Shown here piece after piece: positions 264 through 18,806 of a stretch of 37,953 nucleotides of DNA. Positions within the stretch are counted from its first letter, which is position 1, and each line of letters starts with the position of its first letter. The notes beneath the pieces are model-generated. The model worked only from the letters and a program-made list of their open reading frames with translations. It was not told the DNA's origin and did not search any database. The position numbers were made by a program, and so were the translations under genes. Location: contig JAJDUG010000046.1 of the NCBI GenBank assembly GCA_022826755.1, positions 1 to 37,953 on the forward strand, in the 5' to 3' direction. The DNA is from Acidobacteriota bacterium. Lineage in GTDB: Bacteria; Acidobacteriota; Terriglobia; Versatilivoradales; Versatilivoraceae.

Positions 264-1250
264 ATGGATACAGCCCGCTCAAGGGAAATGTCTGAACCGA
301 ATACGGCGGATCGAACCCACCTGCCGTCGCCCCGGCGGTTCCTGAGAACCGGCGCCCGGTTGAGCCGGGCCGCGGTGATCGCCTTTGCCGAGGGACCGGC
401 CTACCACTCCGACGGCAGCGTCTACTTCAGCGACATCATCAACAATCGTGTGATGAAGCTGGCGGCGGACGGCCAGCTCTCCGTCTTCAGGTCGGACAGC
501 GGCAGGACCAATGGAAACCTGTTCGACAGCCGAGGGAGGCTGGTCAGTTGCGAGGGCTGCGAAATGGGGTCGGGCGGCCGTCGTCGGATCGTGCGCACCG
601 ATCTGGAAACCGGCCGGGTCGAGGTGTTGACGGAGCGATTTGAAGGCCGGCGTTACAATAGCCCCAACGACTTGGCCATCGACCGAAAGGGACGTATCTA
701 TTTCACCGATCCCTGTTATGGCGACCGTTCCGCCATGGAGATGGATGTCGAAGCCGTCTATCGCCTGGACTGCGACGGAAGAGTCTCCAGAATATTGGAG
801 CAGCCTTCAATCCAGCAACCCAACGGGATCGCGGTCAGTCCGGACGACCGTTTTCTCTATGTGGCGGACTACAACATCAGTCCGGGGGGAGCCCGAAAAA
901 TCTGGGGGTTTGAACTCGACCCCGGGGGTGTGCCCTCCGGACAATCCCTGGTCTACGACTTCGGCGTGGGGCGACCAGGTGACGGCCTACGTGTCGATAG
1001 GCACGGAAACCTGTGGACGGCTGCCGGAATTACCTTGCCGAAACGGGAGGGAGAATCCGATGTCAACCCGGCAGGGATTTATGTGATTTCTCCTCAGGGC
1101 AGATTATTGGACAGGATACTCATCCCGGAAGACGTGGTGACCAACATGACCTTTGGCGGGAGCGACAAGAAGACCCTTTATGTCACCGCCGGCAAGAGCC
1201 TCTTCAAGATCGGCATCAACGTGCCCGGTTACAGTCTTTTCCCCCGTTGA
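264..1250 (+). CDS. SMP-30/gluconolactonase/LRE family protein
   Basis: A 328-residue six-bladed beta-propeller lactonase-type protein. Members hydrolyse sugar lactones, using a divalent metal held by Glu, Asn and Asp. The expected ligand contexts are present: FAEGPAY (E43), SPNDLAID (N135), QPNGIAVSPD (N187) and GDGLRVD (D240). Length is typical for the family. No convincing ribosome site precedes the ATG at 264; an in-frame ATG at 288 would remove eight residues and keep the fold, so the start is uncertain. No signal peptide is evident, suggesting a cytoplasmic enzyme. It opens a run of sugar-oxidation genes, where a lactonase would open the lactone made by a sugar dehydrogenase. The exact substrate is unknown. 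Confidence 0.88.
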   Translation: MDTARSREMSEPNTADRTHLPSPRRFLRTGARLSRAAVIAFAEGPAYHSDGSVYFSDIINNRVMKLAADGQLSVFRSDSGRTNGNLFDSRGRLVSCEGCEMGSGGRRRIVRTDLETGRVEVLTERFEGRRYNSPNDLAIDRKGRIYFTDPCYGDRSAMEMDVEAVYRLDCDGRVSRILEQPSIQQPNGIAVSPDDRFLYVADYNISPGGARKIWGFELDPGGVPSGQSLVYDFGVGRPGDGLRVDRHGNLWTAAGITLPKREGESDVNPAGIYVISPQGRLLDRILIPEDVVTNMTFGGSDKKTLYVTAGKSLFKIGINVPGYSLFPR

Positions 1251-1352: not shown

Positions 1353-2321
1353 ATGAAAATAGGACTGTTTACCGACGGACTTCCCGATTTGTCCTTCACC
1401 GACGCCCTGGATTGGGTGGTGGAGCAGGGAATCGAGGCCGTTGAAATCGCCACCGGTGGGTTTTCCAAGGCGACCCACTGCGACGCGGACCGTTTGCTTT
1501 CCGACGCCGGGGCGCGATCCGAATTCAAGGCTGCCGTCGACAGCCGCAACCTGGTCGTGAGCGCCTTGAACTGCAACGGGAATCCGGTGGACCCCAACCC
1601 GGAGAGAGGCAAGAAACACGGCCAGGACCTCTTCAATTGCATTGATCTGGCCGAAAAATTGGGCGTGGATACGGTAGTCGCCATGAGCGGCTGCCCGGGA
1701 GACCCCAGCGGGACTCCCTATCCCAACTGGGTGGCCCACAGCTTCCAGCAGGAATTTCTGGACCTTCTCGAGTGGCAGTGGGACGAAGTGCTGACGCCCT
1801 TCTGGGAGAAGGCCGGTCGGTACGCGGCCGACCACGGAGTCCGGGTCGCCATCGAGATGCATCCCGGGCAGTCGGTCTTCAACACTACCGGGCTGCTGCG
1901 GCTGCGCGAGATTGCCGGTCCCTCGGTGGGAGCCAACCTGGATCCCAGCCACCTGTTCTACCAGGGAATGGAACCGAGTTGGGTGGTTCAGAACCTGGGA
2001 CCCGACTTCATCTTTCACGTGCATGCCAAGGACACCCGGATCGACCGACACAAGATGGCCTTAAGCGGCGGAATAGACCTGACTCCCATGCACCTGGTGC
2101 TGGAAAGGTCCTGGGGATACCGGACCCTGGGGTTCGGTCACGGAGAGCTGTGGTGGCGGGAATTCCTCAGCGCCTTGCGGTCGGTCGGCTACGATGGGGT
2201 GCTGAGCATCGAGCACGAAGATTCCCTGATGAGCGCACCGGAAGGCATAATCAAGAGCGTCGAGTTCCTCAAGCCTCTCCTCATCAGGACCATGCCCGAG
2301 GAAAATCCGCCCTGGTTATAG
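1353..2321 (+). CDS. Sugar phosphate isomerase/epimerase (xylose isomerase-like TIM barrel)
   Basis: A 322-residue AP-endonuclease-2/xylose-isomerase-like TIM barrel. The N-terminus MKIGLFTDGLPDLSF, the central AIEMHPGQ strand, NLDPSHLF, FHVHAKDT and the C-terminal SIEHEDSL are the usual strand ends that carry the Glu, Asp and His metal ligands. Family members isomerise or epimerise sugars, inosose or hydroxypyruvate. It ends 10 bp before the next dehydrogenase gene, consistent with one transcript. A weak GGGAG lies just ahead of the ATG. Its place between a lactonase and Gfo/Idh/MocA oxidoreductases points to sugar or cyclitol interconversion, but the substrate cannot be assigned. Confidence 0.9.
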   Translation: MKIGLFTDGLPDLSFTDALDWVVEQGIEAVEIATGGFSKATHCDADRLLSDAGARSEFKAAVDSRNLVVSALNCNGNPVDPNPERGKKHGQDLFNCIDLAEKLGVDTVVAMSGCPGDPSGTPYPNWVAHSFQQEFLDLLEWQWDEVLTPFWEKAGRYAADHGVRVAIEMHPGQSVFNTTGLLRLREIAGPSVGANLDPSHLFYQGMEPSWVVQNLGPDFIFHVHAKDTRIDRHKMALSGGIDLTPMHLVLERSWGYRTLGFGHGELWWREFLSALRSVGYDGVLSIEHEDSLMSAPEGIIKSVEFLKPLLIRTMPEENPPWL

Positions 2322-2331
2322 ACGGGACGCC

Positions 2332-3489
2332 ATGAACTCATTGGGTGTAGGCGTCATCGGCATGGGGTGGATGGGACACACCCACAGCCGGGCCTACCGC
2401 CAGCTTCGAGACCGCTTCCCGGAACTGGACACGGAGGTGCGCCTGGTCTGCTGCGCCGACGCCGTGGCCGAGCGGGCGCGGGAAGGGGCTGCCCGGCACG
2501 GGTTCGAGGGGCACACCACCGACTGGCCCTCGCTGATCGAGGACCATCGGATCGCGGCGGTGAGCGTGACGACTCCCAATGACAGCCACCTGGCCATTGT
2601 GAGCGCGGCCGCCCGAGCGGGCAAGCACATTCTCTGCGAGAAACCCGTGGGCAGGACGCCGCGGGAGACGGTAGCCATTCGGAGAGTGGTCGAGGAATGC
2701 GGCGTCCTGACCCTGGTGGGCTTCAACTACCGTTGGGCCCCCATGGTTCAATACGCCAGGCAGCTCATCCGGGCGGGCTACCTCGGCGATATCACGCACT
2801 TCCGCAGCCGCTATTTCGAAGGCTATGCCCGCAATCCGGAAGAACCCGTTTCCTGGCGCTTCGATCGATCCGTCTCCGGCACCGGTGTGTTGAACGACAT
2901 GCTCTCGCACACCACCGACCTGGGCCACTTTCTGGTGGGTCCCATCAAGCGGGTGGCGGCCAATCGAAAGACCTGGATCGACAGCCGCCCCGAGGCCGGC
3001 GAGCAGGTTTCCCGCGTGGGGCGCCGGCCGGTCACCAACGAGGACTACGTGGGCGGCCTGGTTCAGTTCGAGAACGATGCCCGGGGGAGCTTCGAAGCCT
3101 GCCGCATCATCACCGGACCGCAACAGGAGTTGAAAGTCGAGGTGAACGGCACTACCGGCTCCATCATCTGGGACTTCGAGCGCATGAACGAGCTCCAGGT
3201 ATATGTCAATCCGGGACGGGAACCTCTACGGCAGGGTTATACCCGCCTGTTCAGCAACCCGGAGTATCCCTTTCACGGGCACTTCAATCCGGGGCAAGGC
3301 ACCAGCCTGGGATACGAGGACCTGAAAACCATCGAGGCTTCCCGTTTCGTCCAGTCGATCCTGGAGGGAAAGCAGGCGACACCGGGCGTTCGGGAAGCCG
3401 CCGAGGTGGCGGCCGTGCATGCGGCGGTGGAGCGTTCCTGGGAGTCTGATCAGTGGCAGGAAGTTGGACGAGTGGAGAGTGGAGAGTGA
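2332..3489 (+). CDS. Gfo/Idh/MocA family oxidoreductase (paralogue 1)
   Basis: A 385-residue NAD(P)-dependent sugar dehydrogenase. An N-terminal Rossmann fold (GVIGMGWMG) is followed by CEKPVG with the catalytic-type Lys104, then the alpha/beta C-terminal domain with LSHTTDLGH (His193). It resembles the gene at 3949 almost throughout (shared [20 protein letters not shown]), so the two are paralogues. The last codons are odd: after the shared WQEV the protein ends GRVESGE, which is the translation of a purine-rich GAGTGGAGA tandem repeat, and the stop TGA (3487-3489) lies in that repeat. The original 3' end was probably replaced. It likely oxidises a hydroxyl of a sugar, inositol or sugar acid. 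Confidence 0.92.
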   Translation: MNSLGVGVIGMGWMGHTHSRAYRQLRDRFPELDTEVRLVCCADAVAERAREGAARHGFEGHTTDWPSLIEDHRIAAVSVTTPNDSHLAIVSAAARAGKHILCEKPVGRTPRETVAIRRVVEECGVLTLVGFNYRWAPMVQYARQLIRAGYLGDITHFRSRYFEGYARNPEEPVSWRFDRSVSGTGVLNDMLSHTTDLGHFLVGPIKRVAANRKTWIDSRPEAGEQVSRVGRRPVTNEDYVGGLVQFENDARGSFEACRIITGPQQELKVEVNGTTGSIIWDFERMNELQVYVNPGREPLRQGYTRLFSNPEYPFHGHFNPGQGTSLGYEDLKTIEASRFVQSILEGKQATPGVREAAEVAAVHAAVERSWESDQWQEVGRVESGE

Positions 3490-3948: not shown

Positions 3949-5127
3949 ATGGCGCATGAAATCGGTATTGGAGTCATCGGCATGGGCTGGGTCGGCAACG
4001 TGCACAGCCGCGTCTACGGCCAGGTAGCGGATCGATTCCGAGACACGGGGATCCGCCCCCGCCTGGTCATCTGCGCCGACGAAGTGGAAGCTCGGGCCAG
4101 GGAGGGGCAGGAGCGCTTCGGCTTCGAGCGGCGGACCACCGACTGGAAGGAGGTCATCGCAAACGACTCCGTTCAGGCCATCAGCGTCGCCTCGCCCAAC
4201 CACCTGCACCTGGAGGTCGTACGGGCTGCTGCCGTCGCCGGCAAGGACATCTTCTGCGAGAAGCCGGTGGGCATGGGGCCGCTGCAGACGGCCGAGATCG
4301 AAGGGATCGCCCGCCGGGCCAAGGTCATCAGTTGGGTCGGTTACAACTACCGCTGGGCCCCGCTGGTCCAGTACGCCCGCAAGCTCGTTCAGGAGGGCAA
4401 GCTGGGGGAGGTGACCCACTATCGCGGTCGCTTTCTGGTGGGTTACGGCAGGGACCCCAATGGAGTGCTCTCCTGGCGGTTCCAGAAGGAATGGTCGGGC
4501 ACCGGCACCCTGGGCGACCTGATCTCCCACGTGGCCGACATGGCCCACTCCATGGTTGGGCCGGTGAAGCGCCTGACCAGCGCCAGCCACACCTTCATCA
4601 CCGAGCGTCCCCTGGTCCCCAAGGGGTCCGGCACCCACTTTTCCACCGGGTCGGCCGACGATCCCAAGGGGCCGGTCACCAACGAAGACTACGTGAGCGC
4701 GCTGGTCGAGTTCGGCAACGGCGCCCGGGGGACCTTCGAAGCCTGCCGGGTCATCAAGGGCCCCGGTTGTGAAATGGCTTTCGAGCTGAACGGGACCCGG
4801 GGAGCGTTGAAGTGGGACTTCGAGCGCATGAACGAGCTTCAGCTCCATCTGCCCGACAGCGCCACCGAGCGTGACGGGACCACCGTGATTCAAGGCAGTC
4901 CCGACCATCCCTCCTACGTGCAGTTCTACACGGGTCCGGCCATCAGCATGAGCTACGACGACCTCAAGTTGATCGAGGCGGTGGAATTTCTCAACTCGGT
5001 GGCCGGCCGAAAACAGGGAGAGCCGGGATTCAAGGAGGCCTTGGCCGTGGCCGAGGTCCAGGAGGCCATGCAACGCTCCTGGAAGTCCCAATGCTGGGAA
5101 GAAGTCCGCAGTCTTAGACGGGACTGA
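3949..5127 (+). CDS. Gfo/Idh/MocA family oxidoreductase (paralogue 2)
   Basis: A 392-residue NAD(P)-dependent dehydrogenase close to the gene at 2332. The Rossmann motif GVIGMGWVG is at the N-terminus, CEKPVG has Lys105, and ISHVADMAH has His194 in the substrate pocket. GAGG about 11 bp before the ATG is a weak ribosome site. It has a short insertion near residues 220-240 ([15 protein letters not shown]) absent from paralogue 1, and a different C-terminus (EEVRSLRRD), supporting the view that paralogue 1 has lost its original end. It is likely a second sugar, inositol or sugar-acid dehydrogenase, or an oxidoreductase for the epimer. The substrate is unknown. Confidence 0.92.
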
Positions 5128-5206: not shown

Positions 5207-6241
5207 ATGGGCGATAAACGAGCCCGCTGGGGCCTGTTGAGCACGGCCCGAATCAATGAGCGTCTGATCCCGTGCCTGAAGCGGTCGGAGCGAAACGAGC
5301 TGATCGCGGTGGCCAGCCGCAGCCAGGATACGGCCAATCGCTATGCCGCGGCACACGGCATTTCCAAGGCCTATGGCAGCTATGACGAGATGTTGGCGGA
5401 TCCCGCCATCGACGTGGTTTACATTTCTCTGCCCAACGGGCTGCACACCGAGTGGTCCGTCCGGTGCGCCGAGGCCGGGAAGCATGTGCTCTGCGAAAAG
5501 CCGCTGGCCCTGTCCGTTGAAGAGGTCGATCAACTTCGGGAGGCCGCCGGCCGTTGCGGCGTCACCATCCAGGAAGCCACCATGATGCGTTTTCACTCCC
5601 AGACCTCCTACGTGCGCAACCTGATCGCCGAGGGAGCTGTCGGAGAGGTCCGAATGGGTCGCGGCCTCTTTACCTTCACCCTGGAACGTCCCGGGGACAT
5701 CCGTTTGGACCCCGCCATGGGTGGGGGATCGATCTGGGACCTGGGCAGCTATTGCGTCAGCTTCGCCCGCACCGTGTTGCAGGCCGAGCCGGTGGAACTC
5801 TTTGCCGTGCAAACCGCCGGACCCACCGGAATCGACATGAGCTTTTCAGGCCACCTGAAGTTTTCCACGGGGACTTTCTTTCACTTTTTTTCCAGCTTCG
5901 CTTCCTTCACCCAGGTCGACGCCGATCTGCTCGGAACCGCCGGGTATCTGCACCTGGACCTTCCCTGGGTCAACCGGGTGAATCAGTCGGCCAACGTGCG
6001 CCTGGTCCGCGAGGCGGGAGGCCGGGAAGCTTCCACCTTCGGCGACGGCCTCGGCAATCGCAAGACCGAGAGAAGGGTCTACGCCGAAGTCGACGCCTAT
6101 CGGGACGAAGTGGAATCGATGGCCGCCACCGTTCTGGATGGCGCCGCCCCGGTGATTTCCCTGGAGGACAGCCGGGCCAACGTGGCTGCCATCACCGCGC
6201 TCTGCCGATCGGCCCGGGAAGGCCGACCAGTGGTGTTATAG
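5207..6241 (+). CDS. Gfo/Idh/MocA family oxidoreductase (dihydrodiol dehydrogenase-like)
   Basis: A 344-residue member of the same superfamily, but of a different branch from the two upstream copies. It starts RWGLLSTARINERLIP, the form seen in trans-dihydrodiol/D-xylose dehydrogenase-like proteins. CEKPLALS carries Lys98, EATMMRFHSQ follows, and GGGSIWDLGSYCVSF is typical of that branch. TTAGTGAGGT lies 7 to 10 bp upstream of the ATG. Its stop TAG (6239-6241) is in frame with and 12 nt before the next gene, so the two are surely cotranscribed. Cytoplasmic; probably NADP-dependent oxidation of a pyranose or a deoxy-sugar, by family analogy only. Confidence 0.9.
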   Translation: MGDKRARWGLLSTARINERLIPCLKRSERNELIAVASRSQDTANRYAAAHGISKAYGSYDEMLADPAIDVVYISLPNGLHTEWSVRCAEAGKHVLCEKPLALSVEEVDQLREAAGRCGVTIQEATMMRFHSQTSYVRNLIAEGAVGEVRMGRGLFTFTLERPGDIRLDPAMGGGSIWDLGSYCVSFARTVLQAEPVELFAVQTAGPTGIDMSFSGHLKFSTGTFFHFFSSFASFTQVDADLLGTAGYLHLDLPWVNRVNQSANVRLVREAGGREASTFGDGLGNRKTERRVYAEVDAYRDEVESMAATVLDGAAPVISLEDSRANVAAITALCRSAREGRPVVL

Positions 6242-6253
6242 GAGGAGGTTGCA

Positions 6254-7138
6254 CTGCAGATCCGACGCGTTGCCATCTTGAGTCCCGGAGACATGGGCCA
6301 TGCCGTGGGACGGGAGTTCCGGGCCAGCGGCCTGGAAGTGCTGACCTGCCTGTCGGGGCGGAGCCCTCGCACCTGCCGGATGGCGGAACTTGCCGGGTTC
6401 AAGACTGTGCCCAGCCTGGAAACGCTCGCCGAGCAGGCCGACCTCATCCTTTCCATTCTGGTTCCCGAGTCGGCGGTGGCTCTGGCGCAGGAAGTGGCCG
6501 GCGCCCTGGAACGCACCGGCTGCCGCCCGGTCTTTGCCGACTGCAACGCGATCTCGCCGGCGACCTCCAGGCGGATCGAAAGCATCATCTGCGAGGCCGG
6601 CGGCCGCTATCTCGACGCCTCCATCATCGGTCCCCCTCCCGGACAGGGGCAGCCTCCCCGTTTCTACGTCAGCGGCTCCCCTGCGGAAGCCATGGCTCAG
6701 CTCGACGGTCGAGGCATTGCCGTCAAGTGGATCGGCAGCGAGGTGGGACGGGCCTCGGCCATCAAGATGTGCTACGCCGGGCTCACCAAGGGAACCCTGG
6801 CGCTTCACGCGGCCGTGCTCACCAGCGCCGAGGCTCTGGGTCTCTCGGCGGAGCTGAGAGAGGAGCTTGTCTACAGCCAGGGCCAGAAGCTCAAGGCCCT
6901 GGAGCACGTCAGGCGGGTTCCGGCCAAGGCCTTCCGCTGGATCGCCGAAATGGAGGAGATTGCTTGCACCTTCGGGAGCGTCGGGGTCACGTCGGACATC
7001 CACTCCGGCGCGGCCGAGGTCTTCAGAATGGTCGCCGAGAGCGACCTGGGAGGGGAGCGAACCGATACGTTGGATCGGGACCGGACCCTCCCGCAGACCG
7101 TATCGCTTTTGGCCGAAAGCTTGAAGCGGAGGCATTGA
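6254..7138 (+). CDS. 6-phosphogluconate dehydrogenase-like NAD(P)-binding protein with DUF1932 domain
   Basis: A 294-residue two-domain dehydrogenase: a Rossmann domain beginning RRVAILSPGDMGHAVG and a helical C-terminal DUF1932 domain (AGLTKGTLALHAAVL, FGSVGVTSDIHSGA) with the Lys found in the beta-hydroxyacid dehydrogenase fold (IKMCYAGLTKG). The start is notable. An ideal GGAGGAGG at 6241-6248 sits 5 nt before CTG at 6254. No ATG, GTG or TTG in that frame lies between the preceding in-frame stop and a TTG at 6278, and starting at 6278 would delete the first beta strand of the nucleotide fold. CTG initiation is therefore the best reading. The likely role is oxidation of a hydroxy acid in the local sugar pathway. 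Confidence 0.85.
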   Translation: MQIRRVAILSPGDMGHAVGREFRASGLEVLTCLSGRSPRTCRMAELAGFKTVPSLETLAEQADLILSILVPESAVALAQEVAGALERTGCRPVFADCNAISPATSRRIESIICEAGGRYLDASIIGPPPGQGQPPRFYVSGSPAEAMAQLDGRGIAVKWIGSEVGRASAIKMCYAGLTKGTLALHAAVLTSAEALGLSAELREELVYSQGQKLKALEHVRRVPAKAFRWIAEMEEIACTFGSVGVTSDIHSGAAEVFRMVAESDLGGERTDTLDRDRTLPQTVSLLAESLKRRH

Positions 7139-7198: not shown

Positions 7199-8722
7199 GT
7201 GAACACCTCAGTCTTTTCAGCGCTGGACTACGTGGCTCTGACCACCTACCTGGTCCTGGTGGTCGCCATCGGGGTCTGGGTGGGCCGCGGTCAGAAAGAC
7301 ACCAAGGAGTACTTTCTGGCCGGCCGCTCCATGGGCTGGTTTCCGGTCGGCATCTCCACCCTGGCCAGCCTCTACAGCGCCATCACCTACATGGGGGCGC
7401 CGGCGGAGTACTATACCCATGGCCTGGAGATGGCCAGCCAGACCCTCTCGATCGTGCTGGTGGTCCCGGTGGTGATGTACGTCTTCATGCCCTTCTTCCA
7501 CCGGCTGCAGGTCTACACGGCCTACGAGTACCTGGAGGAGCGCTTCGACCTGCGGGTCCGCAGCCTGGCCAGCGCGGTGTTTGTTATCTGGAGAATTCTG
7601 TGGATGGGCACGGCCACCTACGTGCCGGCCCTGGTGCTTCACACCGTCACCGGCATGCCCCTGCTGGAGACCATCCTGGGGGTCGGCATCGCGGCCACGC
7701 TCTACACCGTGGCCGGCGGAATGCGGGCGGTCATCTGGACCGACGTCTGCCAGTTTTTCATCCTGATCGGGGGCTCGGTGCTGGCCGTCTGGATCATCGG
7801 CATGGACGCGGGGGGAATGGGTGAGATCTGGAGGCTCGGCGAGCAGGGGGGCAGGACCCGGCTGTTCGACTGGTCGCTGGACCCCACCATCCGGGTAACC
7901 ACCTGGGGAGCGCTGATGGGGTCGCTGGTGGGTCACATCGGCATGTATGGAGCCGACCAGGTCAGCGTGCAGCGCTATCTGACCGCCAGGTCGCTTTCCA
8001 TCATGCAGAAGTCCTTCATCCTGAACATGGGTGCCGGCCTGCTCATGAAGGGGTTCATCATCATCATCGGGTTGGGACTGTTCGCCTACTACGCCACCAA
8101 CCCGCAGAATCTGCCCGATGCGATTCAGGGAGATCGGGTCTTCCCCTATTTCATCGCCACCCAGATGCCCATAGGACTCCGGGGGATGATGATTGCCGCC
8201 ATCCTGGCGGCCGCCATGTCGTCCATCGATTCCGGATTGAACTCCTGCACCACCGCCCTGATCACCGATTTCTTCAAGAGATTCAACTGGAAGCCGGCCT
8301 GGATCATGCGATGGTCTCCCGGAGAGGCGCCCCTCGAGGTGGCCGCCAGGGAATTGAAGCTCTCTCGCCTGCTGACCCTGGGCCTGGGCGTGGCGGTTAC
8401 GGTGCTGGCCTGCTTCGTGGGTGGGCTGGGGTCCATCATCGAGATCACCAACAAGCTGGTCAACAGCTTTGCCGGTCCCATGGCGGCCGTCTTCGTGCTG
8501 GGGATGCTGACCCGCAGATGCGAGTCTCGCGGAGCCTTCTGGGGTCTGCTGGTGGGAAGCCTGGTCACCAGCTATTTCATCTTCTACTCCACCGTCTCAT
8601 TCCTCTGGTACGGCACCGTGGGCCTGACCACCACCCTGGTGGTCGGCTACGCCATCAGCATGTGGCATGGGAGCCCCCCGACCAACCGCACCGACCTGGT
8701 GTACCGCCTGCCCGGGTTCTGA
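7199..8722 (+). CDS. Sodium:solute symporter, SSS family (copy 1 of 3)
   Basis: A 507-residue polytopic membrane protein of the solute:Na+ symporter family (LeuT fold, usually 13 helices). The signatures GRGQKDTKEYFLAGRSMGW, ISTLASLYSAITYMGAP, GGMRAVIWTDVCQFFI and AAAMSSIDSGLNSCTTALI are characteristic, the last being the helix that supplies Na+-site hydroxyls. The start is GTG with a weak upstream ribosome site. It shares long stretches with the next two genes, showing tandem duplication. Given the dehydrogenases upstream it probably imports a sugar, polyol or sugar acid with sodium, although SSS members also carry amino acids, pantothenate or monocarboxylates. Confidence 0.93.
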   Translation: MNTSVFSALDYVALTTYLVLVVAIGVWVGRGQKDTKEYFLAGRSMGWFPVGISTLASLYSAITYMGAPAEYYTHGLEMASQTLSIVLVVPVVMYVFMPFFHRLQVYTAYEYLEERFDLRVRSLASAVFVIWRILWMGTATYVPALVLHTVTGMPLLETILGVGIAATLYTVAGGMRAVIWTDVCQFFILIGGSVLAVWIIGMDAGGMGEIWRLGEQGGRTRLFDWSLDPTIRVTTWGALMGSLVGHIGMYGADQVSVQRYLTARSLSIMQKSFILNMGAGLLMKGFIIIIGLGLFAYYATNPQNLPDAIQGDRVFPYFIATQMPIGLRGMMIAAILAAAMSSIDSGLNSCTTALITDFFKRFNWKPAWIMRWSPGEAPLEVAARELKLSRLLTLGLGVAVTVLACFVGGLGSIIEITNKLVNSFAGPMAAVFVLGMLTRRCESRGAFWGLLVGSLVTSYFIFYSTVSFLWYGTVGLTTTLVVGYAISMWHGSPPTNRTDLVYRLPGF

Positions 8723-8732
8723 ACAGACATCC

Positions 8733-10247
8733 ATGCCTCTATCCCCGTTTTCCTTTCTGGACTACCTTCTGCTGTTCGCCTATCTCCTGGTCATGGTCTG
8801 CATCGGGGTCTGGGTGGGCAGGGGACAGAAAGACACCCGGGAGTACTTCCTGGCCGGCCGTTCCATGGGGTGGTTCCCCCTTGGTATTTCCACCATCGCC
8901 AGCCTCTACAGCGCCATCAGCTACATGGGGACGCCGTCCGAGTACCTCACGCACGGCTCCAAGTTCGCCGTGCAGATGCTGGGCGCCTTCCCCTCGGCGG
9001 TGGTCGTCATCTTCGTGTTCATGCCGTTTTATCATCGGCTGAAGGTCTACACGGCTTACGAGTACCTGGAGAAGCGCTTCAACGTCACCGTGCGCTCGCT
9101 GGCCAGTGCCGTCTTCGTCCTGTGGCGGGTGCTGTGGATGGGCACCGCCATTTACGTCCCCTCCCTGGTGCTGCACACGGTCACCGGCTTTGCCCTGGTA
9201 GAAACCATCGTGGCGGTGGGCGCGGTGGCGACTCTCTACACTGTCGTGGGCGGGATGCGAGCCGTGATCTGGACCGACGTGATCCAGTTTTTCGTGCTGT
9301 TTTGCGGGTCGATCCTGGCCCTGTGGGTGGTGGGTTCCGCGGTTGGAGGAGCTTCCGGAATCTGGACGGTTGCTGAAGCCGGAGGGAGGACCCGAGTTTT
9401 GGACTGGTCACTGGACCCGACCGTTCGGATCACCACCTGGGGAGCCTTCCTGAGCGGCCTGGTGGCTCACATGGGAACTTACGGCACCGACCAGGTCAGC
9501 GTGCAGCGCTACCTTTCGGCCCGCTCCCTGAAAACGATGCAGCAGTCCTTTCTCATGAACATGGGCGGCGGCTTCCCCCTGGGGCTGATGATGATCTCGA
9601 TCGGACTGGGCCTCTACGCCTTCTACCATCTCAATCCGGGGCAGTTGCCGGCCGACATCCAGGGAGACCGGGTTTTTCCCTATTTCATCGCCAGCCAGAT
9701 GCCGGCCGGGTTGAGAGGGATCATGATCGCGGCCATCCTGGCGGCGGCCATGTCGTCCATCGATTCGGGGCTGAATTCGGTGACCACGGCCATCATGAAC
9801 GATTTCGTCAAGCGGTTCGGATGGTCCCTGACCTGGATTGCCTCCTGGTATTCCGGACCTGGCTCCCTGGAATTGGCGTTCGCGCGGCTGCTCACCCTGG
9901 GCCTGGGTGTCCTGGTGACCGTGCTGGCCTGTTATGTGGGACAGTTGGGATCCATCGTGGAAATCGCCGCCACCATCGTGGACAGCTTCACCGGGCCCAT
10001 GCTGGGAGTGTTTCTGCTGGGAATGCTGACCCGCACGACCGAGTCCAGGGGCGCATTTCTGGGGCTGCTGCTGGGAACTCTCACCACGGGTTACTTCATC
10101 CTCTACTCCAATATTTCCTTTCTATGGTATGCGCCCATTGGCGTTTGCACCACGCTCCTGGTGGGCCAACTCGCCAGCCGGCTGGTGGGCGCCCCCGGCG
10201 ATCCGCCCAGCGAACTGGTGTTTCGGATTTTTCGCTCCCGGAAGTAG
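8733..10247 (+). CDS. Sodium:solute symporter, SSS family (copy 2 of 3)
   Basis: A 504-residue SSS transporter. An upstream in-frame ATG at 8667 lies inside the previous gene and adds a non-membrane stretch; the ATG at 8733 gives the family N-terminus (SPFSFLDYLLLFAYLLVMV) and is preferred, leaving a 10-bp gap after copy 1. It shares REYFLAGRSMGWFP, LYSAISYMGTPSEY, AVIWTDVIQFFV and MSSIDSGLNSVTTAIMNDF with its neighbours. It is more like copy 3 in the first third (SYMG, EKRFNVTVRSLASAVFV) and has a shorter loop after the FVKRFGW segment. Copies 2 and 3 may bring in related substrates. The substrate is not known. Confidence 0.93.
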   Translation: MPLSPFSFLDYLLLFAYLLVMVCIGVWVGRGQKDTREYFLAGRSMGWFPLGISTIASLYSAISYMGTPSEYLTHGSKFAVQMLGAFPSAVVVIFVFMPFYHRLKVYTAYEYLEKRFNVTVRSLASAVFVLWRVLWMGTAIYVPSLVLHTVTGFALVETIVAVGAVATLYTVVGGMRAVIWTDVIQFFVLFCGSILALWVVGSAVGGASGIWTVAEAGGRTRVLDWSLDPTVRITTWGAFLSGLVAHMGTYGTDQVSVQRYLSARSLKTMQQSFLMNMGGGFPLGLMMISIGLGLYAFYHLNPGQLPADIQGDRVFPYFIASQMPAGLRGIMIAAILAAAMSSIDSGLNSVTTAIMNDFVKRFGWSLTWIASWYSGPGSLELAFARLLTLGLGVLVTVLACYVGQLGSIVEIAATIVDSFTGPMLGVFLLGMLTRTTESRGAFLGLLLGTLTTGYFILYSNISFLWYAPIGVCTTLLVGQLASRLVGAPGDPPSELVFRIFRSRK

Positions 10248-10637
10248 CCGGTCTCGGGGCAAGCCGGCGCGCGGCCCCTTGATGCGCAAGAGTGTTGAGA
10301 GGAGGTCCACCCGGGAACGCGGGCGTCCCGCCCGCATGCGATCCCGTTGCGTGCCACTCAGTTTCCCTGCGATGCGGCACCCGGCCGGCCAGCCGGCGGG
10401 AACCTCACGGGCCCGGCCGAAGCCGTGCCATGACGCTGTTGCCGGTCCATCCAGGTCGTGGAGACGGGCGAGGCTGTGCCGGAATTGGTGCGGGCGGGAC
10501 GCCCGCGCTCCCGGGTGGGCTTCCTCTCCTGACCTGCGTCTTCCATTAGGAGCCGCAATGAAATTCGTGTAGAATCCGAGCCCGAGCCGGCTCTGCACGC
10601 ATTCCGAGCGTCAAGCTTCCTCCGTCCAAGGACCTCC
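10248..10637. repeat. MITE-like element with 30-bp inverted ends in the symporter spacer
   Basis: The 390-bp gap between symporter copies 2 and 3 holds no supported gene. CCACCCGGGAACGCGGGCG then TCCCGCCCGCA (10307-10336) is repeated inverted at 10489-10518 with about 29 of 30 bases matching, bounding roughly 212 bp. The inside holds further GC palindromes such as GGCCGGCCAGCCGGC. Small reading frames across it (for example ERGRPAR and RDARAPG types) are products of the repeat and not genes. The structure fits a non-autonomous mobile element. A ribosome-site-like AAGGA precedes the next gene at 10638. Confidence 0.7.
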
Positions 10638-12182
10638 ATGGACCAGCCGCTTTTTTCCCCCCTCGACTATTTCCTCATGTTGGCCTACATCCTGCTGGTG
10701 GTGGGGGTGGGGGTCTGGGTCGGCCGCGGGCAGCGTTCCACCAAGGAATACTTCCTGGCGGGCCGCTCCATGGGCTGGTTCCCCATCGGGATCTCCACCA
10801 TCGCCAGCCTCTACAGCGCCATCAGCTACATGGGTGGCCCTTCCGAGTATCGCAGCTACGATTTGCGCCTCACGGTGGGCATATTTTCCATGATCCCCAC
10901 GGCGCTGGTGGTCATGCTGGTCTTCATGCCCTTCTTTCACCGGCTGCAGGTCTACACCGCCTACGAGTACCTGGAAAAGCGGTTCAACGTGACCGTTCGC
11001 GCCCTGGCCAGCGCCGTCTTCGTTTTCTGGCGGATCCTGTGGATGGGGACGGCCGTCTACGTGCCCTCCCTGGTGCTGCACACCATCACCGGTTTTCCCC
11101 TGATTCCCATGATCCTGCTGGTCGGCGTGGTGGCCACCCTCTACACGGTGGTGGGGGGGATGCGGGCCGTGATCTGGACCGACGTGGCCCAGTTCTTCGT
11201 GCTTTCGGCCGGTTCGGTGCTGGCCCTCTGGGTGGTGGGCGCTCACGTCGGGGGGCTGGAGGGCATCTGGTCGGTGGCGGAGCAGGGCGGCAGGACCCGG
11301 ATCTTCGATTGGACCCCGGACCTCACCACCCGGGTCACCTCCTGGGGAGCTCTGATCGGCAGCCTGGTCGCCAACCTGGGAATGTACGGGGCCGACCAGG
11401 TCAGCGTGCAGCGCTATCTAGCGGCCAAGTCGCTCAAGGGCATGCAGAAGTCGTTCATTCTCAACACGGTGGGCGGCTGGGCCATGGGGTTCCTCATGAT
11501 CGGGATCGGCCTGGGACTCTACGCCTTCTATGCCCTGCACCCCGGGAACCTGCCGGCCACCATCGGCGGAGACAAGGTCTTCCCCTACTTTATCGCCACC
11601 GAGATGCCTCTGGGCTTGCGGGGCATGATGATCGCCGCCATCCTGGCGGCCGCCATGTCCTCCATCGACTCCGGCCTCAACTCCTCGGTCACGGCCTTGA
11701 TCACCGATTTCTTCAAGCGCTTCGGCTGGCTGACCCGGGGCGGCGCGGCTACCGAGGGTGAAGCAGCCCGCCGGGAGCTGAAGATCTCCCGAGCCTTGAC
11801 CCTGGCCCTGGGGGTGGTGGTCACCGTGCTGGCCTGTTTCGTGGGGGCCCTGGGCACCATCATCGAGATTGCCAACAAGCTGGTGAACAGTTTTGCCGGG
11901 CCCATGCTGGGAATTTTCATTCTGGGAATGATGACCCGCAGGACGGAATGGCGCGGCGCCTTCTGGGGCCTGCTGGCGGGCACGGTGGTCACGGGCTACT
12001 GCATCCTGGACAACAGCGTTTCCTTTCTCTGGTTCGGCCCCATCGGGGCGTTGGTCACGGTGCTGGCGGGGCAGTCCGTCAGCGCGTTGCTGGGTGGCCA
12101 GGTGTCCGACCGCTCCGACCTGGTCTTCCAGTTCCGGCGCGGCTGGTGGCAAAGGGCCACCACCGAGTCGGCGGAAGACTAG
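10638..12182 (+). CDS. Sodium:solute symporter, SSS family (copy 3 of 3)
   Basis: A 514-residue SSS transporter with the same blocks as copies 1 and 2: GRGQRSTKEYFLAGRSMGW, ISYMGGPSEYRSYD, GGMRAVIWTDVAQFFVL, MSSIDSGLNSSVTALITDF and EIANKLVNSFAGPML. The middle region (SITDFFKRFGW loop and NKLVNSFAGP) is closer to copy 1, whereas the N-terminal third is closer to copy 2, a mosaic that suggests gene conversion among the three. AAGGA lies about 8 bp before the ATG. The membrane location and Na+ coupling follow from the family. It is separated from copy 2 by an inverted-repeat element that may have been inserted after the duplication. Confidence 0.93.
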   Translation: MDQPLFSPLDYFLMLAYILLVVGVGVWVGRGQRSTKEYFLAGRSMGWFPIGISTIASLYSAISYMGGPSEYRSYDLRLTVGIFSMIPTALVVMLVFMPFFHRLQVYTAYEYLEKRFNVTVRALASAVFVFWRILWMGTAVYVPSLVLHTITGFPLIPMILLVGVVATLYTVVGGMRAVIWTDVAQFFVLSAGSVLALWVVGAHVGGLEGIWSVAEQGGRTRIFDWTPDLTTRVTSWGALIGSLVANLGMYGADQVSVQRYLAAKSLKGMQKSFILNTVGGWAMGFLMIGIGLGLYAFYALHPGNLPATIGGDKVFPYFIATEMPLGLRGMMIAAILAAAMSSIDSGLNSSVTALITDFFKRFGWLTRGGAATEGEAARRELKISRALTLALGVVVTVLACFVGALGTIIEIANKLVNSFAGPMLGIFILGMMTRRTEWRGAFWGLLAGTVVTGYCILDNSVSFLWFGPIGALVTVLAGQSVSALLGGQVSDRSDLVFQFRRGWWQRATTESAED

Positions 12183-12233
12183 GAAAAGGCGCCAAAGCCG
12201 GCAGCAGTTTCTCCTCCGTCCGCAACACGGCTC

Positions 12234-14189
12234 ATGAACAAAGCCCCCCAACCCAATCCATCCATGGACCCGGGCATCCCTCCCTGGAGCCGCGGGGACC
12301 TTCCTCCATCGCCCCGTTTCGGATGGCGCCAGATCACATCTCTCATCGGTCCGGGGATCGTCATGGTGGGGGTGTCGATCGGAGCCGGAGAATGGCTCTT
12401 CGGTCCGGCCGTGACGGCCCAGTACGGCGGGACGCTCCTCTGGCTGGGCGGTTTGAGCATCCTCATGCAGTTGTTCTACAACCTGGAGGTGATGCGCTAC
12501 ACCCTCTACTGCGGAGAGCCGGTGCACGTGGGGTTCTGCCGATCGTGGCCCGGCCGCCGTTTCTGGATTCCCTTCTATGCGGTCCTGGAGTTTTCCAGCA
12601 TCTGGCCCTTCATGGCCTCCAACGCGGCCGTGCCCCTGGCCGCCGCCATGCTGGGCCATCTGCCCGGGGCCGGGATGACCAGTTGGATGGGTTTCGACAT
12701 GTCGGAGGCGGGCCTGGTCAAGGTGCTGGGCTACCTCATCTTCATCCTGGCCTTTGTGCCCTTGATCTTCGGGGGAACGGTCTACCGCCTGATCGAGCGT
12801 CTCATGACCGCCAAGATGGTCATCGTGCTGACCTTTCTCACCTTTACCTCGCTGTTCATGGTCTCCGGGCGCAACGTTCGCGAGGTCTTCAGCGGGTTCT
12901 TCCGGGTCGGGACGGCGCCGTTGCGGGCCGCCACGGTGATTGCCGACGGACATTTCACCCTGAGCACCCGGGAAGCCGGAGCCGCCTATACCATTCGTGG
13001 AACCCTGGAAAACGGCAGGCCGGTAGCCCTCTCATTCGCGGTGGACCGGGAAGGGAACCTGCAGACTTTCGGAATGGGAGATCCGGTCCCCCCCGGACTC
13101 GACAATCGGCGCAGGCGCATGCTGGAACAGGCCGGAAGGCTGGCTCGAAAAGGAGGGTTTTACATCGAGGTTGTCGAAGGGACAGCCGTCTTGTCGGCCG
13201 AAGGCAGGATCGCGGACGACCGATCCTGGGTCCCCACCGCGTACTTTGTGAAGCGGAACGGCCTGGTGGAACGCTTCGAGAGCCTGGAGGAGCTTCCTCC
13301 TGCCTTTGCCCGGCGCCTGGGAGAACTGGTGGACCGCCAGGGTCTGGAGCTGGTGAGCCTGATCGGGTACGCCCGGGAACATGGACGGCTGCCCTACCTG
13401 GAGTGGGCCATGCTGGCCGGGCTGGCGGCCATCGCCGGCGCCGGCGGCCTGTCCAACAGCCTCTTCTCCAACTACACCCGGGACAAGGGCTGGGGCATGG
13501 GGGCCCGGGTCGGGGCCATCCCCAGCGCCGTGGGAGGACTGACCATCAGCCTCTCCCACGTGGGCGAGGTTTTTGCCGTCAGCCGGGAATCCCTCCAGCG
13601 GTGGAGGGGCTGGCTCCGCCAGATTCGCCGGGACCAGGCCATCTGGGTGATCGGCAGCTTCCTGGGCATGGCCCTCCCCTGCATGCTGTCGCTGGAGTTC
13701 ATCCGCAACGCTCCCATCTCGGGAAACCGGGTGGGCGCCATGGTGGCGGACGGCCTGGCCTCCCGCTATCCTGATTTCGGCTATATCCTGTGGCCGCTGA
13801 CCCTGCTGATCAGCTTCCTGGTTCTGGCTCCCAACCAGATCCACTCGGGGGACAACATCGCCAGGCGTTGGACCGACATCATCTGGACGGTGAGCCGCCG
13901 GGCCAGGACCCTGGGAGGAAACCAGGTCAAGTTCATCTACTACGGAATCCTGCTGGCCTACGGCATCTGGGGGCTGTTCGCCCTCTCCCTGTTCAACCCC
14001 CTGCAGATCGCCAAGGTGGGAACGGTGCTGATGAACGTGGCCCTGGGAGCCAGCTCCCTGCATGTCCTCTACATCAACCACTCGCTGCTGCCGCCCGACT
14101 TGCGACCGGGCTGGATCAGCCGGATCGGCCTCGTCTGCTGCGGCCTGTTCTTCCTCGGAATCACCGTCATCGTTATCTTCAAGGTGTAG
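12234..14189 (+). CDS. Nramp-fold transporter-like protein with large soluble insert
   Basis: A 651-residue membrane protein. The first segment, LIGPGIVMVGVSIGAGEWLFG (about residues 37-57), and the next, GGTLLWLGGLSILMQLFY, align with Nramp helices 1 and 2, but the Nramp metal motif DPGN is replaced by GAGE and the helix-6 MPH motif is absent (AIAGAGGLSNSLFSNYTRDKG). Helices 1-5 end near residue 210. Residues 211-390 form a hydrophilic domain of about 180 residues, then five or six more helices follow. In the standard Nramp topology this loop would face outside. It sits directly after the sugar symporters. It is best called an Nramp-superfamily protein of unknown substrate; an Mn2+/Fe2+ role is unlikely from the motifs. 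Confidence 0.8.
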   Translation: MNKAPQPNPSMDPGIPPWSRGDLPPSPRFGWRQITSLIGPGIVMVGVSIGAGEWLFGPAVTAQYGGTLLWLGGLSILMQLFYNLEVMRYTLYCGEPVHVGFCRSWPGRRFWIPFYAVLEFSSIWPFMASNAAVPLAAAMLGHLPGAGMTSWMGFDMSEAGLVKVLGYLIFILAFVPLIFGGTVYRLIERLMTAKMVIVLTFLTFTSLFMVSGRNVREVFSGFFRVGTAPLRAATVIADGHFTLSTREAGAAYTIRGTLENGRPVALSFAVDREGNLQTFGMGDPVPPGLDNRRRRMLEQAGRLARKGGFYIEVVEGTAVLSAEGRIADDRSWVPTAYFVKRNGLVERFESLEELPPAFARRLGELVDRQGLELVSLIGYAREHGRLPYLEWAMLAGLAAIAGAGGLSNSLFSNYTRDKGWGMGARVGAIPSAVGGLTISLSHVGEVFAVSRESLQRWRGWLRQIRRDQAIWVIGSFLGMALPCMLSLEFIRNAPISGNRVGAMVADGLASRYPDFGYILWPLTLLISFLVLAPNQIHSGDNIARRWTDIIWTVSRRARTLGGNQVKFIYYGILLAYGIWGLFALSLFNPLQIAKVGTVLMNVALGASSLHVLYINHSLLPPDLRPGWISRIGLVCCGLFFLGITVIVIFKV

Positions 14190-15154: not shown

Positions 15155-16030
15155 TTGCAAGCTTTTGACTATGTTGCGCCCAAGAGTTTATCGGAAGCGG
15201 TGAGCTTGTTGGAGCAGAAGGGTGAGCGGGCCCGCGTATTGAGCGGAGGGACCGACCTGATCGTCCAGGTGCGGGAGAACAGGCGCGATGTGGATCTCAT
15301 CGTGGACGGCAAGAAGATTGCCGAGCTCATGGAGCTGTCTTTCGATTCCCAATCGGGACTGACCCTGGGTGCTTGTGTTCCCTGTGTCCGCTTTTACGAA
15401 GACGCCCGGGTTTCGCAGCTCTATCCCGGCCTGAACGACGCCGCCCTGCTGATTGGAGGCACTCAGATCCAGAACCGGGCTTCCTTTGGCGGAAACCTGT
15501 GCAACTCCTCGCCGGCGGCCGACTCCATTCCCGCCCTGATTGCCCATTCGGCCGTCTGCCTGATTGCCGGATCGGGCGGCACCCACACGGTGGCGGTGGA
15601 AGATTTCTGCACCGGTCCGGGAAGGAACGTGCTGGGGCCCAAGGAATTGCTGGTTTCCTTTCACGTCCCTCCTCCCCCCAAGAACTTCGGCGCCCACTAC
15701 CTGCGCTTCATTCCGCGAAACGAAATGGACATCGCCGTGGTCGGCTGCGGCGCTTCGCTGGAGATGGAATCCGATCTTCGCACCGTCAAGAAGGCGCGAG
15801 TCTCCCTGGGAGCGGTGGCTCCCACCCCGCTGCTGGTGGCGGAGGCGGCAGCCGAGCTGGAGGGCAGGGAACTGGATGACGGCGCCATCGAGAAGGCCGC
15901 GGCTGCCGCGCGGGCGGCGGCCCGACCCATTACGGACATGAGGGGCACCGAGGAGTATCGGGTGCACCTGGCGGGAGTGTTGACGCGGCGCGCACTGGAG
16001 ACCTCGTTAGAACGGGCCAAGGAGGAGTGA
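15155..16030 (+). CDS. Molybdenum hydroxylase FAD-binding subunit (CoxM/CutM-like)
   Basis: A 291-residue FAD-binding medium subunit of the xanthine dehydrogenase/CO dehydrogenase family; it passes electrons from the 2Fe-2S subunit to an acceptor. ARVLSGGTDLIVQVREN and GGTQIQNRASFGGNLCNSSPAAD are the two FAD-binding loops typical of the family; the C-terminal domain ends with ITDMRGTEEYR. The start is TTG at 15155 with GTGAGGGA 6 nt upstream. No 4Fe-4S insertion (as in 4-hydroxybenzoyl-CoA reductase beta subunits) is evident. The stop is 2 nt before the next gene's ATG. First gene of a three-subunit operon in the M-S-L order. Confidence 0.93.
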   Translation: MQAFDYVAPKSLSEAVSLLEQKGERARVLSGGTDLIVQVRENRRDVDLIVDGKKIAELMELSFDSQSGLTLGACVPCVRFYEDARVSQLYPGLNDAALLIGGTQIQNRASFGGNLCNSSPAADSIPALIAHSAVCLIAGSGGTHTVAVEDFCTGPGRNVLGPKELLVSFHVPPPPKNFGAHYLRFIPRNEMDIAVVGCGASLEMESDLRTVKKARVSLGAVAPTPLLVAEAAAELEGRELDDGAIEKAAAAARAAARPITDMRGTEEYRVHLAGVLTRRALETSLERAKEE

Positions 16031-16032
16031 GA

Positions 16033-16515
16033 ATGGCGGCGAAAGTTCATGTGACAGCAACCCTAAATGGAGAACCGGTCGAATTCCTGTGCGAGCCCAG
16101 GCAGAGCTTGTTGGAGGTCTTGCGGGACGAGTTGAAGTTGACCGGCAGCAAGGAGGGATGCAACAACGGCAACTGCGGAGCCTGCAGCGTCATCCTGGAC
16201 GGGTTGCTGGTGGATGCTTGCATCGTGCTGGGCGCGGAGATCGACGGGTGCACGGTGGAAACCATCGAGGGTCTGATGGGGTCGGACGGCCTGCATCCGC
16301 TACAGCAGACGTTTCTGGAAAATGCCGCGCTTCAGTGCGGCATTTGCACGCCGGGTTTCATTATGGCCGGCAAGGCGCTGCTGGAAAAGAACCCTCAGGC
16401 GAGCGAGGGCGACATCCGGCACTGGTGTGCCGGAAACCTCTGCCGCTGCACCGGCTATGACAAGATTGTACGTGCCATCATGGATGCCGAACCCCAACTG
16501 GAGGTGAAGAAATGA
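16033..16515 (+). CDS. Molybdenum hydroxylase (2Fe-2S) subunit (CoxS-like)
   Basis: A 160-residue small subunit with two 2Fe-2S clusters. The plant-type cluster ligands are C43, C48, C51 (EGCNNGNCGACSV) and C63; the helical-domain cluster ligands are C102, C105, C137 and C139 (CGICTPG and CRCTGY). GGAGGAG at 16021-16027 sits 5 nt before the ATG at 16033, which is why this start is preferred to GTG 16027. It overlaps the large subunit by 4 nt (ATGA), indicating translational coupling. It relays electrons from the Mo centre to the FAD subunit in the cytoplasm. Confidence 0.95.
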   Translation: MAAKVHVTATLNGEPVEFLCEPRQSLLEVLRDELKLTGSKEGCNNGNCGACSVILDGLLVDACIVLGAEIDGCTVETIEGLMGSDGLHPLQQTFLENAALQCGICTPGFIMAGKALLEKNPQASEGDIRHWCAGNLCRCTGYDKIVRAIMDAEPQLEVKK

Positions 16516-18806
16516 ACCCCACCCAAACCATGGCCCCCGCCCAGACGGAGGTCGAACAGAAGTACAAGGTCATCGGGACCCGGCCCATACGCCATGACGG
16601 AGTGGACAAGGTCACGGGACGGGCTGTCTATGGCGCCGACGTGCAGTTGCCGGGCATGCTCCATGGAAAGGTGCTGCGCAGTCCTCACGCCCATGCCAAC
16701 ATCAAATCCATCAACACCGCAAAGGCGGAAGCCCTCTACGGTGTGAAGGCCGTGATGACGGCCGCCGATTTTCCGGACTCGGGGAGTCGCACCGCCAACC
16801 TGGGGGAATTGGGCGAGGTCCCCTTGAAGCCCATGTGCGACAACGTGATGGCCTCCGACAAGGCGGTCTACCACGGCCACGCCGTGGCGGCGGTGGCGGC
16901 CACCAGCCCGCACATTGCCGAGGAAGCTCTCGGGCTGATTGAAGTCGAGTACGAGGTGCTGCCGCCGGTCATGGACGTGCTCAAGGCCATGGACGAAGAT
17001 TCTCCGCTGGTGCACGAGGACCTCTACACCGACGAGCTGGGAGAGAAGAGCGCCAAGCCCAGCAACGTGGCCTCGCATACGCGGCATGTCAAGGGCGATC
17101 TCAGCCAGGGGTTTGCGGCCGCCGACCACGTATTGGAGCGGGAATATCGCTGCGCCACCGTCCACCAGGGCTATATCGAACCCCACGCGGCCACGGCCAT
17201 GTGGAATCCCGACGGCTATCTGACGATGTGGGTGACCACGCAGGGCGCTTTTACGGTGCGCACCAGCGTGCACCAGATCCTGGATATCCCGGTCTCCAAG
17301 CTCAAGGTCATCCCCACCGAGATCGGGGGCGGCTTCGGCGGGAAGATCCCGGTATATGGGGAGCCGGTGGCCGCGGTGCTCTCCCGGAAAGCCAGGCGCC
17401 CCGTCAAGGTGGTCATGGATCGGACCGAGGTCTTTCAGGCAACCGGACCCACCTCCGGTTCCTATGTCAAGCTGAAGATGGGCGTCACCAACCAGGGGCG
17501 CATCACGGCGGCCGAGACCATGCTGGCCTACGAGGCCGGCGGCTACCCCGGCTCCATCGTGGCCCTGGGGGGGATCTGCATGTTTGCCCCCTACAATATC
17601 GACAACACCACCATCGACATGTACGACGTGGTGGTGAACAAGCCCAAGACGGCGGCCTACCGGGCGCCGGGAGCCCCCAATTCGGAATTCGCCGTCGAGT
17701 GCATGCTCGACGAGTTCTGCGAGAGACTCGGTTTGGATCCCATGGAGATCCGGCTGCTGAATGGAGCCAAGGAAGGCGACATACAGTCCCACGGGATTCC
17801 CCATCCCCGGATCGGATGTATCGAGACCACCGAGGCGGCCCGGGACTGCGAGCACTATCAGACCCCGCTGGAAGGGCCCAATCGGGGCCGCGGGGTGGCT
17901 TCGGGCTATTGGGTCAACGCGGGCCTGACCTCGAGCGTCACCGCCCGGCTCAACGGCGACGGCACCGTCACCCTGCAGGAGGGTTCCACCGATATCGGAG
18001 GCACCCGGACTTCCATCGCCATGCAGTTGGCCGAGGTGCTGGGGATTCCGGTGGAGGACGTGGTTCCTTCGGTGGTCGATACCGATTCGGTGGGATATAC
18101 CGAAGTCACGGGAGGAAGCCGGGTCACCTTCGCCACGGGATGGGCGGCCTACAACGCCGGTCAGGCCATCAAGAGCCAGCTCATCGAGCAGGCGGCCGAC
18201 CTCTGGAAGGTCGACAAGGACCAGGTGTCCTTGGCCGACGGAGTGATAACCACCACCAATGGCGATTCCAGGTCCATGACCATCAAGGAGCTGGCGGCCG
18301 ACCTCAGCCAGAAGGGCATCGACGTCGGAAGCCGTGAGACGGTCACTCCCCAGAATCACGGGGGAGCCTACGCCACCCACGTGGTGGACGTGGAGGTCGA
18401 TCCCGATACCGGAAAGGTCACCATCCTGCGGTACACGGCCGTGCAGGACGCCGGGAGGGCCATCCACCCCAGCTACGTGGAAGGCCAGATGCAGGGCGGG
18501 GTGGTTCAGGGCATCGGCTGGGCCCTCAACGAGGAGTACTTCTACAATGAAGACGGGCTTCTGATGAACTCCAGCTTCCTGGATTACCGCATGCCCACCA
18601 GCCTGGATCTGCCCATGATCGAGACCATCATCGTGGAAGTGCCCAACCCGGGACATCCCTACGGCGTGCGGGGGGTGGGCGAGGTGCCCATCGTTCCGCC
18701 CCAGGCAGCCATCTCCAACGCCATCGCGCGGGCTGTCGGGGTGCGCCTGGGCGATCTTCCCATGTCTCCCCAGACGGTGGTGAAGGCGCTGTCGGCCAAG
18801 AGCTGA
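16512..18806 (+). CDS. Molybdenum hydroxylase molybdopterin-binding large subunit (xanthine dehydrogenase family)
   Basis: A 764-residue catalytic subunit. The N-terminal domain begins RPIRHDGVDKVTGRAVYGADV; GGGFGGKIPVYGEPVAA is a Mo-cofactor contact; the C-terminal GVRGVGEVPIV supplies the base Glu724 expected for hydroxylation. The loop facing the Mo atom is AYRAPGAPNSEF (Y383), unlike AYxCSFR of true form I CO dehydrogenase, so CO oxidation is not supported. The family hydroxylates purines, aldehydes, nicotinate or aromatic CoA esters; the substrate here is open. No Tat signal is seen, so cytoplasmic. A strong terminator follows 28 bp after the stop. Confidence 0.93.
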   Translation: MNPTQTMAPAQTEVEQKYKVIGTRPIRHDGVDKVTGRAVYGADVQLPGMLHGKVLRSPHAHANIKSINTAKAEALYGVKAVMTAADFPDSGSRTANLGELGEVPLKPMCDNVMASDKAVYHGHAVAAVAATSPHIAEEALGLIEVEYEVLPPVMDVLKAMDEDSPLVHEDLYTDELGEKSAKPSNVASHTRHVKGDLSQGFAAADHVLEREYRCATVHQGYIEPHAATAMWNPDGYLTMWVTTQGAFTVRTSVHQILDIPVSKLKVIPTEIGGGFGGKIPVYGEPVAAVLSRKARRPVKVVMDRTEVFQATGPTSGSYVKLKMGVTNQGRITAAETMLAYEAGGYPGSIVALGGICMFAPYNIDNTTIDMYDVVVNKPKTAAYRAPGAPNSEFAVECMLDEFCERLGLDPMEIRLLNGAKEGDIQSHGIPHPRIGCIETTEAARDCEHYQTPLEGPNRGRGVASGYWVNAGLTSSVTARLNGDGTVTLQEGSTDIGGTRTSIAMQLAEVLGIPVEDVVPSVVDTDSVGYTEVTGGSRVTFATGWAAYNAGQAIKSQLIEQAADLWKVDKDQVSLADGVITTTNGDSRSMTIKELAADLSQKGIDVGSRETVTPQNHGGAYATHVVDVEVDPDTGKVTILRYTAVQDAGRAIHPSYVEGQMQGGVVQGIGWALNEEYFYNEDGLLMNSSFLDYRMPTSLDLPMIETIIVEVPNPGHPYGVRGVGEVPIVPPQAAISNAIARAVGVRLGDLPMSPQTVVKALSAKS

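Follow-up and report, generated by a model that had tools for sequence, protein, structure and literature searches.

An Nramp-related protein of Acidobacteriota with a glycine-rich TM1 motif and a tandem-repeat domain between TM5 and TM6, a candidate importer of organic solutes

It is disputed whether the substrates of Nramp-related proteins are metals or organic compounds. The Nramp-related protein YcsG/MntG, which has no DPGN, increases the Mn content of cells according to a paper that supports Mn import (PMC10448178), whereas its homologue PxpT, an Nramp-family protein of C. glutamicum, is required for growth on 5-oxoproline (PMC13274462). The window analysed here, a stretch of 37,953 nucleotides from an Acidobacteriota bacterium, raises this question for a gene at 12234..14189 (+ strand) that encodes a putative Nramp-related transporter of 651 aa, with an ATG start and 11 predicted TM helices. 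Its clade can serve as a clean test case because all the canonical metal and proton residues are missing from it and it is found within catabolic gene sets.

The gene is taken as real because full-length orthologues with 94-98% identity occur in five other genomes of the genus, and orthology at 74% identity extends to another genus. The protein is conserved across phyla, the wider family (30-57%) extending to Planctomycetota and to a few bins of Verrucomicrobiota and Actinomycetota. Long antisense ORFs at 11418-12953 and 13032-14081 (- strand), and those in other frames too, were rejected as shadows of high-GC coding sequence. The source genome contains at least 12 Nramp-like proteins (contigs C9, C14, C20, C44, C46, C52, C57, C62, C65 and C66); DPGN is absent from all of those read, and L106, the closest PF01566 member in this genome, has GPGT.

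The Nramp fold proposed in an earlier sequence-only reading is upheld by structure prediction, which assigns the protein to the Nramp/LeuT fold with high confidence. The AlphaFold2 model, made with 49 relatives, has a pLDDT of 86.8 and a pTM of 0.87. Nramps come first among solved structures at Z ~31, the nearest ones being all Nramps or Nramp-related proteins (BfraNramp, DraNramp, YcsG, EleNRMT and human NRAMP1; Z 30 to 31.5), and the superposition on Nramps gives an rmsd of ~3 A over 360-390 residues within a span of residues 38-650; SLC7-type transporters, from other APC families, rank next at Z ~25. The likeness of the first helices to Nramp was also recovered by sequence, as the family profile finds BfraNramp with E=7e-4 at residues 37-97 (TM1-TM2). 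The profile was needed for this match, single-protein searches of Pfam and of PDB sequences having found nothing, and PF01566 of Pfam gave no match to the protein. In NCBIfam, the model NF037982 'Nramp_1' matched with 122.2 bits, in two stretches flanking the insert described below, against a curated cut-off of 50 bits.

Cellier recognises three divisions of PF01566: Slc11, NRMT and an orphan outgroup whose function is unknown (PMC9606685, PMC10606218). A 2026 preprint (PMC12873925) describes Nramp-related proteins as paraphyletic and without DPGN/MPH, and names only NRMT and MntG among them as characterised. The features of the G-motif proteins of that preprint, namely an Nramp fold, no DPGN/MPH and a glycine-rich TM1 motif, are those found in the 12234-14189 protein, which belongs with the Nramp-related proteins and not with the canonical Nramps. 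In our tree its family forms one clade with support 100/100 and the DPGN, NRMT-like and GPGT groups sit together, apart from this clade, in a topology whose deep branches are long and whose root is not fixed. A new result is this strongly supported clade placed outside Slc11 and NRMT, among uncharacterised Nramp-related proteins.

The unwound segment of TM1, G50-A51-G52-E53 (12381..12392, +), stands at the place of DPGN in the alignment and coincides with a helix break of the model at 49-51. That of TM6, A401-N408 or AGAGGLSN (13434..13457, +), stands at the place of A..MPHN, with a helix break at 401-404. Alignment with MntH proteins of the DPGN type from the same class agrees with the earlier statement that GAGE replaces DPGN (IGAGEW against MDPGNW) and that MPH is gone from TM6 (AGAGGLSN against GATVMPHN), the position of IAGAGGLSN being uncertain by ~1 residue. 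Moreover, the TM3 glutamate (AEVIG segment; E134 of DraNramp) aligns to an alanine. The canonical Asp, Asn, Met, His and Glu are all missing in the alignment, and the transition-metal site is, as had been suspected, apparently lost. Other residues are strongly kept among members: G.GE occurs in TM1 of nearly all, with E53 and G52 in 47/47 and G50 in 46/47, while N408, S412 and R416 are each present in 49/49 and position 119 in TM3 is D or E in 40/47. The set E53, G52, N408, S412 and R416 is specific to the clade.

These residues could also form the remodelled, NRMT-like site of a divalent cation transporter, where hydrated Mg2+ or another cation would be held at E53 and polar TM6 residues, perhaps with the aid of the acidic residue at 119. 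We consider this possible but rather unlikely. The invariant E53 could bind a cation, and NRMTs without the methionine and the asparagine still move Mg2+ and Mn2+ (PMC8806188), but the NRMT aspartate is absent here, the equivalents of D56, M230, H232 and E134 are all gone, and the clade is not that of NRMT. The equivalog NF037982 is named divalent metal transporter; this name is an annotation against which the absent ligands speak, we do not regard it as supported, and the label probably spreads a wrong function in the databases. Mn evidence does exist for MntG/YcsG (PMC10448178). Since the genus is without a DPGN MntH among its PF01566 matches, another importer must serve, yet the metal job could be done by the GPGT-type PF01566 member of the genome and by several GSGE-type paralogues. 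Furthermore, there is no metal regulator near the loci and their neighbours are catabolic.

A TIM-barrel protein and sugar-type dehydrogenases precede three SSS symporters in the + strand block that this gene closes, in agreement with the block of sugar dehydrogenases and SSS symporters noted previously. The block comprises a SMP-30/gluconolactonase-like protein (264..1250; PF08450), a xylose-isomerase-like TIM barrel (1353..2321; PF01261), two Gfo/Idh/MocA dehydrogenases whose best NCBIfam match, below the model cut-off, is levoglucosan dehydrogenase (2332..3489 and 3949..5127), a third Gfo/Idh/MocA dehydrogenase (5207..6241; PF01408), a NAD-binding dehydrogenase (6278..7138; NAD_binding_2 / DUF1932) and the SSS symporters (7199..8722 and 8667..10247, both PF00474; 10638..12182, PF00474 4e-52), all on the + strand. 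The last symporter ends 51 bp upstream of the Nramp-like gene, and the two are likely part of the same transcription unit; their order is conserved in the genus and also at L012, a locus of another genus in which the window gene block is kept as well. Three consecutive SSS symporters (7199-12182) directly before the Nramp-like gene bring the transporters of the block to four. Downstream, at 15155-18806, we observed a three-subunit molybdenum hydroxylase set (FAD, 2Fe-2S, MoCo) followed by an inositol monophosphatase-like gene, and the presence of this hydroxylase set beside the transporter is conserved in the genus.

A survey of relatives gave a comparable picture. Gfo/Idh/MocA genes lie directly upstream of the C46 paralogue and of a 57% relative (L013). 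The neighbours up to three genes away from 26 insert-bearing loci include 2-hydroxyacid dehydrogenases (6), SSS symporters (6), Gfo/Idh/MocA proteins (5), E1 dehydrogenases (3) and enolase-superfamily proteins (3), counts that stand without a matched background in Planctomycetota; genes for a cyclase, a TIM-barrel protein and an aldehyde dehydrogenase also occur nearby. A closed genome of the genus has a Gfo/Idh/MocA gene 731 bp from the C46 paralogue and an SSS gene 292 bp from the orthologue of our gene, while random places fall within 1 kb of a Gfo gene in 2.5% and of an SSS gene in 2.9% of draws, a comparison that involves few independent loci. Each genome tested yielded only one Fur gene, on another contig, and none near Nramp-like loci. 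The neighbours in relatives are varied catabolic enzymes and symporters, with the sole Fur gene elsewhere, a new observation that fits the organic substrate first suggested for this locus.

We are inclined, with modest confidence, to propose that the 12234-14189 protein takes up an organic acid or a derivative of a sugar. Organic solutes are the better-supported class because of the catabolic context and the loss of all metal ligands, and no single pathway is fixed by the context because the neighbourhoods vary. The protein would be a secondary transporter of the Nramp-related type (LeuT fold) in which the Slc11 transition-metal site was either lost or never present, and it would work by the rocking-bundle cycle of Nramps. 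The substrate would be bound at the unwound middles of TM1 and TM6, with E53 and N408 as likely polar contacts replacing Asp, Asn and Met, and would most likely be a small organic compound, for example a sugar acid, a lactone product or a hydroxy acid, that feeds the adjacent dehydrogenases and TIM-barrel enzyme. This proposal is weakened by the three adjacent SSS symporters, which could already import sugars, and by the metal transport reported for DPGN-less YcsG/MntG (Mn) and for EleNRMT, which moves Mg without the motif (PMC8806188).

One of the unusual characteristics of the protein is the domain inserted between TM5 and TM6. The sequence-only reading had described about 180 residues between helices 5 and 6; the model and the alignment confirm the place and reduce the size to ~155 residues, the insert spanning residues ~227-390 and its folded portion ~234-383. 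The domain proper (12930..13391, +; residues ~233-386) is delimited by AlphaFold2, the family alignment and the isolated-domain fold, which has a pLDDT of 87.7 when these residues are modelled alone. It is predicted to fold as a domain of its own with an internal duplication. Each half of the tandem repeat has four strands and one helix in the predicted structure (bbbb-alpha; 12945..13142, +, residues ~238-303, and 13152..13334, +, residues ~307-367), and hhalign matches half 1 to half 2 with probability 95 and E 2.8e-8. The location outside, as supposed before, is consistent with the extracytoplasmic TM5-TM6 loop of Nramps. The K/R counts of inside loops 6-7 and 8-9 (7 and 6) agree with Nramp topology, although loop 7-8 has 3 as well and the short segment ahead of the insert has 4.

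Searches for relatives of this domain gave little. There was no Pfam match common to the 30 members searched, the insert profile found in the PDB weak matches to unrelated chains and none convincing, and the fold searches reached at best E 2.6e-3 with TM 0.2 (Foldseek) and Z 6.2 (VIA). Polo-box and MHC-like platforms were rejected as relatives, their Z of 5-6 being below the tool's stated noise level. A search of 297 Acidobacteriota genomes with the insert model, limited by its first look, met the domain in no other setting, and a literature search for an Nramp with an inserted outer domain found nothing. The insert changes at about twice the rate of the membrane core (identity ~0.3 vs ~0.6), and its few invariant positions are mostly structural (Gly, Phe, Pro, Tyr, Leu), with an R and an H near its start. 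At L059 (7932-10208) the insert carries extra Ala/Ser/Thr low-complexity stretches and reaches ~250 residues.

In 89 family rows the same point between TM5 and TM6 holds either nothing, the beta-strand domain, or 70-165 residues of D-x-D-G-D-G loops, for example EDRNGNGRLDPGEDWDGDGHLD. Such loops bind calcium in extracellular proteins, which agrees with a TM5-TM6 loop lying outside. Acidic loops number 6.7 per insert of this calcium type vs 0.4 in shuffles; EF-hand and FG-GAP proteins were rejected as relatives, the matches being below cut-offs. DxDGDG calcium-loop repeats at this site were seen in L004 (508-2394) and in L039-L087, while the insert of L032 is of the beta type. In a tree built without the insert, the two types correspond to two sister groups, with insert-free members beside each, and in the source genome all three states are found among four paralogues. 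It is new that one loop has gained two unrelated inserts while other members are without either, which shows that the Nramp fold accepts whole domains at this point. In the Planctomycetota loci L076-L085 the calcium-type gene belongs to a fixed gene block, together with a protein of ~1400 aa, a MotA/ExbB-like protein and two membrane proteins that resemble ExbD/MotB or something similar; these names were given by eye from the sequences.

It had been suggested that the insert senses or binds a substrate. In one form of this idea the domain captures a sugar or an acid and hands it to the carrier, which the outside location and the independent fold would suit; the bbbb-alpha repeats also weakly resemble ligand-binding platforms of two helices over a sheet (Z ~5 to 6). 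Nevertheless no pocket-like residues are conserved, the sequence changes twofold faster than the core and an unrelated insert replaces it in the sister clade, and we consider such a capture role improbable. In a further reading the protein is a sensor or receptor that has given up transport, its outer domain detecting a ligand. Other families do contain transporters that have become sensors, EIN2 has a Nramp-like domain for which, to our knowledge, metal transport has not been shown, and the outer domain here is large and folded. This is still less likely, indeed very unlikely, as the core helices, with their glycines in the two unwound segments, are strongly conserved, the protein has neither an output domain nor a fused regulator, and the insert changes quickly and is not needed by all members of the clade. 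With no detectable relative, mainly structural conservation, and members of the same clade that are without it, the insert does not sustain a sensing or binding role. Because of its fast evolution, its structural conservation and its absence or replacement within the clade, the tandem bbbb-alpha insert is most likely a stabilising or partner-binding cap, which would lie over the outer side of the TM5-TM6 loop.

Extended to the whole clade, the organic-solute proposal becomes more tentative: Acidobacteriota and Planctomycetota may share a clade of organic-solute importers in which a hot spot between TM5 and TM6 twice gained unrelated caps that tune uptake to conditions outside. As tentatively, one of these caps would be a new tandem-repeat fold and the other a calcium-binding repeat.

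Compared with known systems, the 12234-14189 protein shares with canonical Slc11/Nramp proteins (MntH, DraNramp, BfraNramp) the LeuT/Nramp fold and the GPG start of TM1, and differs from them in having GAGE for DPGN, no MPH, no TM3 glutamate, an insert of ~155 residues and no PF01566 match. NRMT (EleNRMT, a Mg2+ transporter) is likewise Nramp-related, without DPGN/MPH and of similar fold (Z 30), but it keeps the TM1 aspartate where our protein has a glycine; NRMTs are recognised by DxxG in TM1 and TxxA/T in TM6, whereas GAGE and AGAGG are found here, and their clade is separate (100/100). Because the NRMT-like proteins of relatives keep DAGG, the protein is not an NRMT. The GSGE-type orphan Nramp-related proteins of the same genome (L108-L111) have in common with it the G.GE of TM1 and the NF037982 match; unlike it, they are without the insert, match PF01566 and are distant in the tree. 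YcsG/MntG of B. subtilis and PxpT of C. glutamicum are also Nramp-related and without DPGN, according to PMC12873925, match in structure (9a52, Z 31.2) and are likewise found in catabolic operons. They belong to a different group without the insert, which is linked with 5-oxoprolinase genes, whereas the group of the 12234-14189 protein is linked with sugar-type dehydrogenases.
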